Assembly (NCBI GenBank): GCA_017411305.1
Contig: JAFQQI010000041.1
Location: forward strand, 1 to 60,689
DNA length: 60,689 bases
Source of the DNA: Lachnospiraceae bacterium
GTDB lineage: Bacteria > Bacillota > Clostridia > Lachnospirales > Lachnospiraceae
Direction of reading: 5' to 3'
Shown: piece after piece, positions 41,011 to 60,689 of the stretch
Layout: each line of letters begins with the position of its first letter
How positions within the stretch are numbered: the first letter of the stretch is position 1
Made by a program: the position numbers and the translations under genes
The notes under the pieces: generated by a model
Database searches by the model: none
The model's input: only the letters and a program-made list of their open reading frames with translations
Told to the model about the DNA's origin: nothing

Positions 41011-41039
41011 GAGATAAAAGGTTGTACAAGGAGGCAGAT

Positions 41040-41975
41040 ATGAAAGAAAAACAAATCTTGGGAATGTTTCCGGGGCGGCTTAGAGAACGTTTCCGTATGC
41101 TTTCGGGAATAATGGACGAACTTCAGGAAATCAGGCTTTGTGCAGATATGCCGGTTAGAATTATCAGTGGAGATGCAGAATATTTTTTGAACGTGACCGG
41201 TGAGCTGTGTCACATTATTACGAGCTGTTGTTGGTATATTTCCGCAGGAGAAATGGAGCAAATATTGGATCATATATGCGGTTATTCCAGATATGCATAT
41301 GAAGAAGCAATCGGACAAGGCTTTCTGACTGTACCGGGAGGACATCGGATTGGTGTGTCGGGAGAAGTGATTTTGGGCAAAGACGGGCAAATAAAAAACA
41401 TGAAGTATATCCGCTATATGAATATCCGTATTGCACATGAAGTAATCGGTGCAGCAGATTGCTTAATGCCGCTTGTGCATGAAAACGGAAGACTATGCAA
41501 TACTTTACTGGTAGCACCGCCGGGCTGCGGTAAAACAACCATGCTCCGTGATTTAGTCAGGCAGATTTCCGACGGGAGCAGCTATGCGGCAGGCAAACAG
41601 GTAGGTGTGGTAGATGAGCGTTCTGAAATAGCAGGCTGTTTTATGGGAATGCCGGGAAATCGTCTCGGAATCCGGACAGATGTGCTTGACGGATGCCCAA
41701 AAGTACAGGGAATGATGCTACTGCTGCGGTCTATGGCACCTCAGGTTATTGCAGTGGATGAAATCGGAAGCGACCGGGATAAACAGGCAATACAGAATAT
41801 TCTGCAATGCGGTTGCAGGGTACTTGCCACCATGCATGGCAGCTCCATGGAGGAAGTCAGGAGCAGGGGGATTGAAAAAAATATGTTTGAGCGGTTTGTC
41901 TTTATGGGTAAAAAAAACGGAAAGTGTACAATTGTTTCTGTATATAAGGATTTAGGAGAAATCATATATGGTTAA
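41040..41975 (+). CDS. spoIIIAA: Stage III sporulation ATPase SpoIIIAA
   Basis: 311 residues from ATG 41040 (AAGGAGG upstream). A secretion-type ATPase with Walker A VAPPGCGKTTMLRDL near residue 162, the VVDERSEIAG motif and Walker B-like VIAVDEIGS. It is the mother-cell cytoplasmic ATPase of the SpoIIIA-SpoIIQ channel that links mother cell and forespore during engulfment. First gene of a complete AA-AH operon; its end overlaps spoIIIAB by eight bases. Confidence 0.95.
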   Translation: MKEKQILGMFPGRLRERFRMLSGIMDELQEIRLCADMPVRIISGDAEYFLNVTGELCHIITSCCWYISAGEMEQILDHICGYSRYAYEEAIGQGFLTVPGGHRIGVSGEVILGKDGQIKNMKYIRYMNIRIAHEVIGAADCLMPLVHENGRLCNTLLVAPPGCGKTTMLRDLVRQISDGSSYAAGKQVGVVDERSEIAGCFMGMPGNRLGIRTDVLDGCPKVQGMMLLLRSMAPQVIAVDEIGSDRDKQAIQNILQCGCRVLATMHGSSMEEVRSRGIEKNMFERFVFMGKKNGKCTIVSVYKDLGEIIYG

Positions 41976-42486
41976 GCTTTTTGGAGTGCTTTTCCTGATA
42001 GTGGGATGCGTAGGAATTTCGGCTGACCTGTGCAGAGAGAGGAAAAGACAGCAGCTGCAGCTGATGGAAATGAAGCATATGTTTTTACTGATGCAGGAAG
42101 ATATCAGATATTCAGGACTTCCCATCCCCCTTATTATCCAAAAGACTGCAAAAAAGACAGACACTCCCTTTTCAGAGGCTCTTACAGCAATTGCTGCTAT
42201 AGCATTACAAAATAACGGTGAGCAGTTGCAGCCGATATGGGAAAAGGAAATGCAGGCTGTTTCGGAACAACTGTCGTTATCAAAAGAACAACAGGAACTT
42301 TTATGGGAATTTCCCCAATCCTTGGGACTTTGGGAAAAGGAAGGACAAGCAAAAGCACTTTCGTATTACATAGAAGAGACAGACAAGTGGATTATACAAT
42401 CAGAAAAAGAAGAAAAAGACAAAAATAAGGTAATTATGAGTCTGGGAGCAGCGGCAGGTATTATGCTGTCTGTTCTGCTGCTGTAG
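41968..42486 (+). CDS. spoIIIAB: Stage III sporulation protein SpoIIIAB
   Basis: 172 residues. An N-terminal membrane helix, a central helical cytoplasmic domain and a second membrane helix at the C-terminus (VIMSLGAAAGIMLSVLLL). The motif VGISADLCRERKRQ and GLPIPLIIQKTA fit SpoIIIAB, a GspF-like component of the channel. Overlaps spoIIIAA. Confidence 0.9.
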   Translation: MVKLFGVLFLIVGCVGISADLCRERKRQQLQLMEMKHMFLLMQEDIRYSGLPIPLIIQKTAKKTDTPFSEALTAIAAIALQNNGEQLQPIWEKEMQAVSEQLSLSKEQQELLWEFPQSLGLWEKEGQAKALSYYIEETDKWIIQSEKEEKDKNKVIMSLGAAAGIMLSVLLL

Positions 42487-42503
42487 GCGGATTGGGAGGA
42501 ACT

Positions 42504-42698
42504 ATGGAAGTAAGCCTGATTTTTAAAATTGCTGCAGTTGGAATTCTGGTTACAATTTTGAGCCAGGTATTAAAGCACAGCGGTAGGGAAGAGCATGCTT
42601 TTTTAATAAGTCTTGCAGGATTAATACTGGTGTTGACATGGATATTGCCCTATATTTATGAACTGTTTGTCATGATACAGGATTTATTTACGTTGTGA
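42504..42698 (+). CDS. spoIIIAC: Stage III sporulation protein SpoIIIAC
   Basis: 64 residues from ATG 42504 with GGGAGG upstream. Two membrane helices (IFKIAAVGILVTILSQVLK and LISLAGLILVLTWILPYIY). Typical length of this small membrane component of the SpoIIIA complex. Confidence 0.9.
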   Translation: MEVSLIFKIAAVGILVTILSQVLKHSGREEHAFLISLAGLILVLTWILPYIYELFVMIQDLFTL

Positions 42699-42713
42699 GG
42701 AAAGGAGTTATCA

Positions 42714-43100
42714 ATGGATGTAGTCAAAATAGGAGTGCTGGGGCTTGCAGGTGTAATGCTTGCACTGCAATTTAAGTCTGTTAAGCCGGAAATCAGCATC
42801 TATATGGGACTGGCTGTGGGAATCGTTATTTTTTGTTTTTCCGTAGATGGATTACTGGGCATATTGGACAAGATTCAGTCTCTGCAAAGCTATATAAAAT
42901 CAGGAGAAGGCTATTTCGGACTTCTGTTTAAGGCTGTGGGAGTTACTTATATTTGTGAGTTTACGGCAGCAGTATGTAAGGATGCAGGTTATGGTGCCGT
43001 TGCCGGACAAATTGAAATATTCGGCAAGCTGACAGTGCTTTTTATGGGAATGCCTGCGCTTCTTGCCATAATAGAAAACATTAGTGCCTTTGCTGTTTAG
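42714..43100 (+). CDS. spoIIIAD: Stage III sporulation protein SpoIIIAD
   Basis: 128 residues, about four membrane helices, with KIGVLGLAGVMLALQFKSVK at the start and YICEFTAAVCKDAGYGAVAG in the middle, typical of SpoIIIAD. AAAGGAG precedes the ATG. Membrane part of the feeding-tube complex. Confidence 0.92.
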   Translation: MDVVKIGVLGLAGVMLALQFKSVKPEISIYMGLAVGIVIFCFSVDGLLGILDKIQSLQSYIKSGEGYFGLLFKAVGVTYICEFTAAVCKDAGYGAVAGQIEIFGKLTVLFMGMPALLAIIENISAFAV

Positions 43101-43112
43101 GAGAAGCTTGGA

Positions 43113-44342
43113 ATGAAAAGAAAAAGAAACAGAATCAGAATATATCTGATGGGCTTGTTGCTTTTGGGGCTGCTTTGGTTTTTTTCGGTACAAAACATAT
43201 ATGCGGGTAAAGTGTCTTTTGAGGAAAATAATACAGAAGCGGAAGATAACAGTTCGTTGGAAACGGCAGAAAAAGAGGCTGAACTGGAGCTGGAGCATTA
43301 TTTATGGGAACAGCTTAGCCGGTATGATTTAAAGGAGGTACAACGTAGTTTTGAAGAATTGTTTCCCGGATTTTCCATAGATACACAGCAGTTGCTTTCA
43401 CTTATTTTGGATGGAGAGTTTTTTTTGGCAGGTGATTTATTTCTGCAGGCTGTCAGAAAAGGATTCACAGGGGAACTGACAGGTGTCAGAGAGGTGCTGG
43501 TCAGCATTCTTGTGGTGGGCATTGTATCAGCACTTTTTTCCAATTTTTCCGATTTGTTTTCCGGAAAACAAGTTTCCCAGGTGGGGTACTATTTTTTATA
43601 TCTTTTGCTTATGGCAGTGTTGACAAGAGCTTTTATTTCCGCAACGGAGCTGGCAGTATCTACGATGGAGAATACGGTTCTGTTTGTGAAAATGTTTATT
43701 CCTACATGGATGTTGACTGTGGGAGCGACGGGAAGCGGCCAAAGTGCAGCTTTTTATTATCAGGTAATGCTGATAGCGGTTTATTTGGTAGAAAGCTTTC
43801 TTTTAAACGTACTGGTGCCATTTGTGCTTTGTTATGTAGTGTTAGCCCTTCTGACCGGTATCTGGGCAGAAGAGAGACTTACGCTTTTGTTGGAACTGTT
43901 GAAAAAAGGGATTATTTTTGCACAAAAGCTTACCATGGGTGCGATTACGGGACTTAGTTTGGTACAATCGTTAATTTTACCTGTGGCTGACCGTCTGAAA
44001 ATTTCCGCTCTGCGAAAAGTTGTAACAGCAATTCCGGGTATCGGCAATATGACGGATGGAGTAACAGAACTGGTAATCGGTTCTGCAGTACTGATAAAAA
44101 ACAGCATGGGCATTTTGCTGCTTTTTTTACTTTTAGCCGTTTGTCTGGTCCCGCTGTTGAAATTGTTTGTGGTGGGAGGGATTATCAAACTGGGAGCAGC
44201 GCTTAGCGGTGTGGTCAGTGATAAGAGGATTGCCGGTTGTGCGGATAAGGTGGGAGAAGGCTGCTTTTTGCTTCTTAGGTGTTTGTTTACGTCTGTCACC
44301 TTGTTTTTGATTGTAATAGCGGTTGTGGCATATTCGCTATAA
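43113..44342 (+). CDS. spoIIIAE: Stage III sporulation protein SpoIIIAE
   Basis: 409 residues. A signal-like helix, an extracytoplasmic segment rich in Glu (about 35-130) and seven or so membrane helices from residue 130 on. The stretches LSLILDGEFFL, PTWMLTVGATGSGQSAAFYY and AIPGIGNMTDGVTELVIGSAVLIKN are conserved in SpoIIIAE. It is the largest membrane component of the channel. Confidence 0.93.
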   Translation: MKRKRNRIRIYLMGLLLLGLLWFFSVQNIYAGKVSFEENNTEAEDNSSLETAEKEAELELEHYLWEQLSRYDLKEVQRSFEELFPGFSIDTQQLLSLILDGEFFLAGDLFLQAVRKGFTGELTGVREVLVSILVVGIVSALFSNFSDLFSGKQVSQVGYYFLYLLLMAVLTRAFISATELAVSTMENTVLFVKMFIPTWMLTVGATGSGQSAAFYYQVMLIAVYLVESFLLNVLVPFVLCYVVLALLTGIWAEERLTLLLELLKKGIIFAQKLTMGAITGLSLVQSLILPVADRLKISALRKVVTAIPGIGNMTDGVTELVIGSAVLIKNSMGILLLFLLLAVCLVPLLKLFVVGGIIKLGAALSGVVSDKRIAGCADKVGEGCFLLLRCLFTSVTLFLIVIAVVAYSL

Positions 44343-44356
44343 AGAAAGAAGGTATC

Positions 44357-44683
44357 ATGCTCGCGATTATAAAGGAAATGGGAATATTTGTAGTGATTGC
44401 ACAGGCAATTCTTTTTTTTGTGCCTAAGGAGACCTATGCAAAATATGTGAAGGTTTTAATCGGAATTATGGTGATTGCAAAGCTCATATCCCCCTTGTTT
44501 ACATTGTTTTCAAATGAAACATGGGAGGAAATTGTATTTTCCGGTTATGAGGCGGAAGAAGAAATAAAAAGTACACAGGAAGTATTTCTCGGAAAAGACG
44601 GATACGATAACTTAATGCAGCATTATACCAAAATAGCAGAAGAACGGAACAGTCAGATGATACAGGAGGCAGGAAATGAATAA
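44357..44683 (+). CDS. spoIIIAF: Stage III sporulation protein SpoIIIAF (short form)
   Basis: 108 residues from ATG 44357 (AAGAAGG upstream). Two N-terminal membrane helices (IKEMGIFVVIAQAILFFVP and VLIGIMVIAKLISPLFTLF) match SpoIIIAF. The B. subtilis protein is about 200 residues and carries a C-terminal ring-building domain; here only about 45 residues follow the helices. The gene is not frameshifted: the next start overlaps it by eight bases. A short SpoIIIAF may be normal in this lineage. Confidence 0.85.
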   Translation: MLAIIKEMGIFVVIAQAILFFVPKETYAKYVKVLIGIMVIAKLISPLFTLFSNETWEEIVFSGYEAEEEIKSTQEVFLGKDGYDNLMQHYTKIAEERNSQMIQEAGNE

Positions 44684-45287
44684 AAAAGTGAAGGAATTGA
44701 AAAAGGAAAATTTTGTGGTGATTCTATTAGTCGGAATACTACTTCTTGTAATTGCGTGGCCGGTTTCCGAAAAAGAAGATACCCAAATGGCAGAGTCCGG
44801 CATATCGGACACAATAAACGGTACAATAACAGATATAGGAACTGTAGAAGAAAGGGAAAGCAATCCGGCAGGACAGGACTGGGTAACTTATGCGGAATTT
44901 TTGGAGGATACACTGGAAGAAGTATTATCTACTATGGAAGGAGCCGGTAAGGTGAAAGTTATGATTACACTGGAATCTTCGGGGGAATCCATTGTGGAGA
45001 AGGATGTTACTACCGGAATAGATGCATCCACACAGGTAAACGCCGATGGAGGCAGCCATAACACAAGCGGAAACGAAAAAACAGGGGAGACGGTATACGT
45101 ACAGCAGGACAGAGTATCATATCCTTATGTGAAACAGATTATTAGCCCCCGTGTGGCAGGAGTGGTAGTTTCTGCACAGGGAGGAGATAACCTGACCATA
45201 AATAAAAATATAACGGAAGCAATTCAGGCATTATTCGGAATTGATGCACATAAAATTAAAATAATCAAAATGAGTTCCAGGGAATAA
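44676..45287 (+). CDS. spoIIIAG: Stage III sporulation protein SpoIIIAG
   Basis: 203 residues. One membrane helix (FVVILLVGILLLVIAWPV) and a secretin-type ring-building domain: LEEVLSTMEGAGKVKVMITL, a Ser/Asn/Gly-rich loop (about 110-140) and ISPRVAGVVVSAQGGDN. SpoIIIAG forms the large ring in the intermembrane space. AGGAGG precedes the ATG. Confidence 0.93.
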   Translation: MNKKVKELKKENFVVILLVGILLLVIAWPVSEKEDTQMAESGISDTINGTITDIGTVEERESNPAGQDWVTYAEFLEDTLEEVLSTMEGAGKVKVMITLESSGESIVEKDVTTGIDASTQVNADGGSHNTSGNEKTGETVYVQQDRVSYPYVKQIISPRVAGVVVSAQGGDNLTINKNITEAIQALFGIDAHKIKIIKMSSRE

Positions 45288-59354: not shown

Positions 59355-60623
59355 GTGAAAACAGATGATAGTATCAACTGTTCCGTAAGGATATTAACAT
59401 ATAGAAAAATCTTATACATTTTACTGGCGTTGGGGGTGATATTGGTTATGTTTTCCCTGTATTATACGTTATGGAATCGTGTGCCGTCTACAATTATGGT
59501 AAAAGCAGGTGTAGAGCAGACATTGGATTTCGCCCTTCCCGCTTCCGGCAAACTACATCGTGAGGATGCTGTGGAAACAAGCGGAAATGTGAGGAAATAT
59601 GAATCCGCCAACGGCATGGAAGAAGTACTAATCGATTTTAGCAGTCCGGTTATTGTAAAAGCAAATCAGGTTGATACTTATACAATGAAACTTAAGCTTT
59701 TTGGCGTCATCCCGTTAAAGGATGTAGATGTTAAGGTTATTCAGGACGTAAAGTTAAAGCCTGCGGGGATTCCAATCGGCATTTATGTAAGGACTTCGGG
59801 GGTTTTAGTAGTAGCAGTCGGAGACTTTGAGGGAGAGGACGGACAAATGTGCGAACCTGCAAAATATGTATTACAGGCAGGTGATTATATCTTGGAAATG
59901 AATGATGAGGAAATAACAGGAAAAAAACAGTTGATTGAAAATATCAGCCACTCGGAAGGTCAGGAGATTGTTTTTAAAATCAGGAGGGACGGAGAAGAAT
60001 TTTTAGTCCGCGCCAAACCAAAAGCAAATAAAAGCGGAGAGTATAAGATGGGTATCTGGGTGCGTGACAATGCACAGGGAGTAGGGACTATGACCTATAT
60101 TGATGAAAATGGCGGTTTCGGGGCTTTGGGTCACGGCATTAATGATGTGGATACGGGTACCTTGATGGAACTTGACACCGGTACATTATATCATACAGAG
60201 ATTATCGGCATTACCAGAGGACGCAGCGGTTCTCCCGGGGAACTGACGGGGTTTATCGAATATGACGATAACAATATTATGGGGTCTATTACTAAAAATA
60301 CTGCGAAAGGAATTTTTGGTTCCTGCTGCGAAGAAACGATTGCAGCCAATGGATATGAGTATATGCCAATTGGTCTGAAACATGAAATTGAAATCGGTGA
60401 TGCGCAGATTTTTTGCTCTTTGGGAGATGTGGTAAAAATATATGATGTAGAAGTCACTGATATTCATTTAGAAAATGATAATATTAATCGGGGAATCATT
60501 ATCAAAATCACGGATCCGGAGCTTTTGGCAGTAACAGGAGGAATCGTACAGGGGATGTTCACGAGTTATAATGGGAGCAACAACAGGAAAGCTAGAAAAA
60601 TAAAGGGTTTCTTGATGTTCTAG
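59355..60623 (+). CDS. spoIVB: SpoIVB S55 peptidase, interrupted before the active-site serine
   Basis: 422 residues as read, GTG start with AAGGA upstream. One membrane helix (about 15-37), an N-terminal domain, a PDZ domain (about 130-225) and the S55 peptidase core are present. The catalytic His is in GALGHGIND (near residue 260) and the Asp in KITDPELL (near residue 387). The conserved GGIVQGM then ends at residue 401 (base 60557). In SpoIVB proteins it continues SGSPI, with the active-site Ser, and about 45 more residues. Here the next 21 residues begin FTSYNG, are unrelated, and stop. No other frame restores the motif. SpoIVB is made in the forespore and triggers SigK activation through SpoIVFA cleavage, so this product should be inactive unless the inserted DNA is removed. 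Confidence 0.85.
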   Translation: MKTDDSINCSVRILTYRKILYILLALGVILVMFSLYYTLWNRVPSTIMVKAGVEQTLDFALPASGKLHREDAVETSGNVRKYESANGMEEVLIDFSSPVIVKANQVDTYTMKLKLFGVIPLKDVDVKVIQDVKLKPAGIPIGIYVRTSGVLVVAVGDFEGEDGQMCEPAKYVLQAGDYILEMNDEEITGKKQLIENISHSEGQEIVFKIRRDGEEFLVRAKPKANKSGEYKMGIWVRDNAQGVGTMTYIDENGGFGALGHGINDVDTGTLMELDTGTLYHTEIIGITRGRSGSPGELTGFIEYDDNNIMGSITKNTAKGIFGSCCEETIAANGYEYMPIGLKHEIEIGDAQIFCSLGDVVKIYDVEVTDIHLENDNINRGIIIKITDPELLAVTGGIVQGMFTSYNGSNNRKARKIKGFLMF

Positions 60624-60689
60624 TCCTATTTCATTGACCACGAAATAGTGTACTCTTGCGCAAGATACAACAGAATACTTACTAACCAA
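60558..60689. mobile_element. Putative left end of DNA inserted in spoIVB
   Basis: From base 60558 the sequence no longer encodes SpoIVB. The 132 visible bases contain no recognised gene, a CTATTTC/GAAATAG inverted pair (60625-60647 region) and the 12-base palindrome at 60654-60665. No terminal inverted repeat or target duplication can be tested because the other end is outside the window. It could be the end of a recombinase-borne element, a prophage or an insertion sequence. Confidence 0.5.
60654..60665. repeat. Perfect 12-base palindrome near the insertion boundary
   Basis: TCTTGCGCAAGA, which extends to GTA...TAC with one extra base on the left side. It lies about 100 bases inside the foreign DNA and could be a protein-binding site of the element. 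Confidence 0.5.

Follow-up and report, generated by a model that had tools for sequence, protein, structure and literature searches.

What interrupts spoIVB, a core sporulation gene, immediately before the codon of its catalytic serine at the very end of a bacterial contig, and does this break reflect a programmed rearrangement, a mobile element or an error of assembly? The stretch of DNA analysed here (hereafter the window, 60,689 bp) is the complete contig C26 of a 123-contig MAG (G000, 82.6% complete), and it stops only 132 bp inside the interrupting DNA. The genes argR and recN lie upstream of spoIVB, which starts near 59355, and the spoIIIA genes found further upstream on the same contig indicate that the host has sporulation genes. 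One of their six NCBIfam matches exceeds the curated cut-off and five fall under it.

41022..45284, plus strand: spoIIIA genes (AA, AB, AD, AE, AF and AG recognised; NCBIfam matches), the sporulation context of the host

An earlier sequence-only reading of this locus expected spo0A to come next after spoIVB, which is generally not the case in this group: HIKGY, which we take to be a Spo0A motif, was found (plus strand only, flanks of up to 5 kb) on five of the 40 loci L011-L050.

The open reading frame that spans the break (59355-60623, 422 aa) matches Peptidase_S55 of Pfam (5.5e-57) and reaches 282.5 bits against TIGR02860, under the cut-off of 305, presumably because its C-terminus is missing. 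Its homology to SpoIVB ends with GGIVQGM at 60557, dividing the frame into two parts.

59355..60557, plus strand: 5′ part of spoIVB, 401 codons in an open frame, with the PDZ domain and most of the S55 peptidase domain (Pfam and NCBIfam matches)
60558..60623, plus strand: element-encoded codons fused to the spoIVB frame, 21 codons translated as FTSYNGSNNRKARKIKGFLMF, then TAG at 60621-60623

At the break position, the PDB chain of the B. subtilis SpoIVB S378A mutant reads QGM-A-GAP, so that the first codon lost is that of the nucleophile Ser378, and this alignment places the break exactly between the codons of Met377 and Ser378 (B. subtilis numbering). The equivalents of His236 and Asp363 are present upstream (GALGHG and ITDP); a 2025 structure paper doubts that Asp363 is catalytic and favours Thr393 (PMC12502668), whose equivalent is also missing from the spoIVB part of the window. 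For comparison, 100 spoIVB-bearing loci chosen by homology were fetched, all of which gave a homologous open reading frame, and the 73 distinct genes among them all go on with SGSP, preceded by QGM in 72 cases and by QGL in one. Among 54 near-invariant columns, the 5′ part of the window violates a single one (intact genes: mean 0.47, maximum 4), while the interrupted genes of two relatives, G184 and G202, violate three and four, more than most intact genes, both being also more diverged. A frameshift or pseudogene was ruled out, as no SGSP follows 60557 in the reading of the window or in the frames shown for these two relatives, and the 5′ part is undecayed. An SGAP in three interrupted genes had also been considered as a sign of decay and was dropped, Ala occurring there in B. 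subtilis SpoIVB too. The sequence-only reading had described a frame that follows SpoIVB to QGM and turns at once to unrelated residues and a stop, with His and Asp kept, the serine and C-terminus gone, SGSPI restored in no other frame and no decay upstream, and it is borne out on each of these points. It had also raised a second intact spoIVB as an option that would speak against it; the MAG of the window, which is incomplete, yielded neither a second copy nor a spoIVB 3′ half.

The last 150 bases of the window were searched against 397 genomes of the family, and six matched: the window's own, G184 and G202 nearly full-length, and three others over 24-46 bases, which were taken for chance. 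G184 and G202, which represent two further genera, each have a diverged spoIVB that the insert interrupts at this very codon, with 0/129 and 1/132 differences, respectively, from the insert end of the window.

60558..60689, plus strand: left 132 bp of the element, running to the contig end and matching the inserts in spoIVB of G184 and G202

Such a near-identical left end between genera points, from sequence comparison, to a recent transfer, and a recent insertion would also explain the undecayed 5′ part. The three contigs stop at similar depths inside the insert (132 bp in the window, 129 bp in G184, 138 bp in G202). With a k-mer of 141, the host bases left over would number 9, 12 and 3, respectively, and would end in the codons of the conserved QGM; with one of 127, the cut would fall 2-11 bases within the insert. 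If the k-mer was 141, the contigs may have been cut at a repeat common to several hosts per sample, which is only a suggestion.

The missing half of the gene was sought in these three genomes with a 48-residue query from the SpoIVB C-terminus of a relative; it lies on contig C124 of G202, and none was found in G000 or G184. To the left of this 3′ half come a right-end arm and, in tandem, three large serine recombinases (LSRs), which measure 546, 573 and 530 aa and contain Resolvase and Recombinase domains. Two contigs of G202 hence hold the two halves of one spoIVB, each bordering one element end, and their flanks, joined by script without the element, read in frame through to the stop. No contig contains both element ends and the interior was not assembled. 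The window's own bin is devoid of the right end, of an LSR of the spoIVB type and of the 3′ half. The sequence-only prediction that the 3′ part would reappear beyond the element therefore held in the relative G202 and not in the bin of the window, while those of a large serine or tyrosine recombinase near either end, realised by the serine recombinase triplet beside the 3′ part of G202, and of an intervening element entering between the Met codon and the active-serine codon are upheld by the junctions in relatives. Its proposed shared core, GGGGATG, was by contrast replaced through the comparison of left and right junctions by the dinucleotide TG, the only sequence common to all junctions seen.

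60556..60557, plus strand: TG, the putative crossover dinucleotide, common to the left ends (window, G184, G202) and the right ends
60532..60581, plus strand: attL, made of the host half-site (length assumed), TG and the 24-nt left arm at 60558-60581

The left arm of the window and the right arm of G202 form an inverted repeat centred on TG, with 17 of 24 positions matching; none of 200000 shuffles was as good, and the best of 199 other offsets reached 13.

Nine right-hand junctions with this recombinase type run into the spoIVB 3′ part, namely in G202, G280:C20, G195, G662, G782 and the four IMG/VR loci L106-L109, and adding the left ends of the window and of G184 brings the host contexts to eleven. 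Relative to LSR3 of G202, identities are 100% in G280:C20, 62% in L106-L108, 48% in L109 and 53-55% in G195, G662 and G782. Three tandem LSRs in the same orientation stand at the element end in G202, G280:C20, L107, L108, L109, G195, G662 and G782, the short contig L106 holding LSR2 and LSR3 only; we infer the same triplet for the window's own element, before which the contig ends. The aligned DNA of L106-L108 is 98.8-99.8% alike, yet it enters three different spoIVB genes, and LSR3 of G195 and G662 are open frames of 540 and 518 residues. Contig G280:C20 includes just 12 codons (SGAPIIQNGKIV) of the spoIVB 3′ part and is probably mis-binned, since G280 also has its own intact and different spoIVB. 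In G782, ordinary chromosomal genes are found to the left of the module after a broken transposase, and this copy may be rearranged or misassembled.

The spoIVB 3′ part was found in none of 27 genome loci of other LSR3 clades (L117-L143, flanks of up to 1.5 kb) by a tblastn scan in which one of the four queries was empty and for which the 12-codon tail of G280:C20 is too short to detect. It was likewise not seen in the other four of eight IMG/VR LSR loci (30-34% identity), the match of L113 reaching the contig end. At E 1e-100, the class search retrieved two of 391 genomes (G662 and G782); at E 1e-60, the family search retrieved at least 102 of 397, with identities above 50%, among the matches listed, only in G202, G280 and G195. 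In a recombinase tree (82 rows left after 11 repeats or near-repeats had been removed from 93; quick method, no bootstrap, midpoint root), the proteins cluster by triplet position into three groups (SH-aLRT 93, 94 and 100), and those of the spoIVB type form three clades, each with SH-aLRT 100. Exact-pattern searches of IMG/VR with two left-end stretches returned no match, and a 16-base right-end pattern matched five contigs. In the phage collection, the left end had just one 24-base match, in a Pelagibacter phage, and the right end just one 64% match over 10%; a plasmid search with the element ends returned none.

In genus g420, spoIVB looks split in two of the seven genomes that match it: G662 and G782 each give a pair of matches, the best with E near 1e-44, against a single match of about 1e-65 or better in each of five further species. 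G527 gives no match. An intact spoIVB was found in every one of the 29 same-genus loci L051-L079. The insertion thus occurs sporadically, even within a genus, and is most simply explained by elements that enter one site repeatedly. Large serine recombinases of other types were also noted in G202:C127 (L156), in G280:C10 and in the window's own genome (G000:C37:1209-2738, 34% identical to LSR3). Near the one in G202:C127, a 308-bp stretch shares 95% identity with the PemK region next to the triplet of the spoIVB type, and modules may therefore exchange parts.

The target itself belongs to the most conserved DNA of the gene. When stretches of the 73 spoIVB genes are ranked by nucleotide conservation, the one of 30 bp with the crossover at its centre comes 4th of 1252, and those of 20, 40 and 50 bp come 18th of 1262, 7th of 1242 and 5th of 1232. 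One element would therefore be able to enter many hosts, and an integrase reading the DNA around the crossover could, judging from this conservation, enter nearly any spore former. LSR1 at L086:74-1711 has a weak match to DUF4368 (26.2 bits, cut-off 25), a domain tied to multi-target recombinases (PMC10083194); despite this match, the LSR1 module was seen in spoIVB only.

PemK, DUF6870 and HTH genes were found near the triplets, and no conjugation gene was seen in the few kb covered beside them. A small DUF6870 gene precedes LSR1 in all seven spoIVB-type loci with enough DNA.

L090:554-790: DUF6870 gene (PF21757)
L107:2612-2851: DUF6870 gene
L109:1752-2003: DUF6870 gene

DUF6870 was detected in 14 of 18 scanned loci, seven of the spoIVB type and seven of other modules; among the four negative ones, L086 and L106 are without DNA upstream, and DUF6870 had no match in L146 or L148. 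Being small and placed before LSR1, it is a candidate for the directionality factor, which is a guess. A sigma-A-like promoter (TTGACA-17-TATAAT-like, 0-2 mismatches) precedes LSR1 in seven of seven loci, representing about five distinct elements, and was equalled by 16 of 200 shuffles in L090, by one in L107 and by none in the other loci; directly before DUF6870, no clear sigma-A site was found. With such a promoter before LSR1, the recombinases seem to be available during growth. Two smaller observations concern the surroundings of these genes. At 60607-60622 of the window (minus strand), pointing to the boundary of the element, 16 bases (TAGAACATCAAGAAAC) are the same as the LSR1 leader bases at L090:886-901, and GTCAATGAA precedes them at both places (0/300 shuffles as long), which is perhaps a shared control element. 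The DUF6870-LSR module is preceded by the Rfam pemK RNA motif (RF02913) at L144:183-246 and L153:167-262; at the gathering threshold, it had no match in L090, L107 and L109.

Taken together, we consider it highly probable that the window ends in the attL of a mobile element with a triplet of serine integrases, site-specific in spoIVB, most likely an ICE or IME that deprives its host of sporulation, and not a programmed developmental element. Its integration module would be the three tandem large serine recombinases at the other end, as known from the relative with the same left end, and the small DUF6870 gene before the triplet in related copies may act as directionality factor. The putative attP would be the palindrome GTTGCTCCC-N9-CGTGAC-TG-TTCACG-N9-GGGAGCAAC, which the recombinases would join to the DNA coding for the QGM-SGSP active-site loop, with crossover at the TG of the Met codon. 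Integration would remove Ser378 and the remaining C-terminus and inactivate SpoIVB, as predicted from its known catalytic residues, and excision would restore the frame exactly, as it does on paper for G202. For a host deprived of Ser378, Thr393 and the C-terminus, the loss of SpoIVB activity follows from the described catalysis (PMC12502668), and by extension sporulation would be affected in these hosts; carriers would probably be unable to complete spores unless the element leaves. Many clostridia are described as lacking SpoIVFA or SpoIVFB, with spoIVB still listed among the conserved genes (PMC3533761, PMC3416734).

A chimeric contig tail is barely credible as the origin of the junction, even though this tail is just 132 bp long and sits at a contig end in a bin from which the 3′ half is absent. 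Three genera share this junction, at one and the same codon of their diverged spoIVB genes and beside three different host sequences, with the far end found in one of them (G202), and the 9 bp common to the window and G184 hosts at the junction would be too short to cause a false join. An assembly error as the cause of the break, including the join error at 60558 that the sequence-only reading had envisaged, is therefore very unlikely, and the interruption is genuine. A prophage with a serine integrase would account for the listing of related contigs as viral in IMG/VR and for the match of LSR1 and LSR3 to the PHROG integrase family phrog_95; we nevertheless find it improbable, as no phage structural gene was seen in the few kb beside the triplets, where the modules consist of PemK, DUF6870 and LSRs.

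The sequence-only reading raised the possibility of a skin-like element. An element of this kind would be excised during sporulation, in the predivisional cell, mother cell or forespore, to rebuild spoIVB. This would fit the splitting of a sporulation gene, its precise in-frame restoration when the G202 flanks are joined, the undecayed half in the window and the open 3′ halves seen elsewhere, and there is a parallel in gin, an element of gerE that leaves its host gene in sporulation and likewise has three serine recombinases (PMC5595907). However, B. subtilis reads its spoIVB in the forespore (PMC3416734), so that a useful excision would lose the element from the spore too; moreover, LSR1 has a sigma-A-like, vegetative-type promoter in all seven loci, and the insertion is sporadic, with the few split genomes in g420 and only intact genes in the same-genus loci. 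The skin-like label is therefore not supported, and we regard this alternative as hardly probable. A phase switch within the population, in which rare vegetative excision would yield a sporulating minority while carriers stay vegetative and transfer the element, is doubtful but carries more weight: it agrees with the vegetative-type promoter of the recombinases and with the undecayed half of the window, and yin in yabG is described as giving mixed integrated and excised cells (PMC10747680), but no empty-site sequence came from the same sample. Such a switch is compatible with the site-specific mobile element and does not exclude it, a horizontally mobile, ICE- or IME-like element remaining the best reading.

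If so, spoIVB, a core forespore sporulation gene, is added to the targets of serine-integrase elements, and a family of elements keeps entering the same active-site codon in diverged hosts, its recurrent att sites defining a set of sequence-specific integrases. This would be a case of a mobile element blocking or gating spore formation, which would affect the spread of these bacteria between animals. More speculatively, and with considerable doubt, the family may span at least two bacterial families and be specialised on the catalytic-serine codon, with reversible integration as an on/off switch of sporulation, integrated cells being vegetative and transferring the element and excised cells sporulating.

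In the open-licence literature, no report of spoIVB as the target of an integrating element was found among the matches listed, nor were spoIVB and serine recombinase found together; papers combining spoIVB with "integrative and conjugative" concern, by title, B. subtilis sporulation and an acidobacterium. Within this literature, the integration module is known and the target is new. Streptococcal ICEs are described with serine integrase triplets that cluster by position, with repeats of 2-8 bp and with disruption of coding genes such as mutT, traG and hsdM (PMC4701971). The spoIVB element shares with them three tandem, same-orientation LSRs at the element end, clades by position, a tiny direct repeat (here TG) and a disrupted coding gene; it differs by its target and by its hosts, Clostridia with sporulation genes, its LSR clades being distinct within a tree built without the streptococcal proteins. 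The gin element of Bacillus cereus also combines three serine recombinases, a split sporulation gene (gerE) and an imperfect att palindrome, but its recombinases do not form a single tandem triplet (girC lies apart), its core is 9 bp long, and it lies in a mother-cell gene, from which it is excised in sporulation (PMC5595907). Similarly, skin (sigK), SPbeta (spsM), vfbin, vrin and yin are serine recombinase elements in sporulation genes whose precise restoration is possible; they are described as prophages or prophage-like, inserted in mother-cell genes (PMC4191935, PMC10747680), and as a class with a single recombinase (PMC5595907). The developmental elements described in these three sources are in mother-cell genes, whereas spoIVB is a sigma-F/sigma-G forespore gene in B. 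subtilis (PMC3416734). The spoIVB element thus stands apart from the skin class by its recombinase triplet, its forespore target and its sporadic occurrence across genera.
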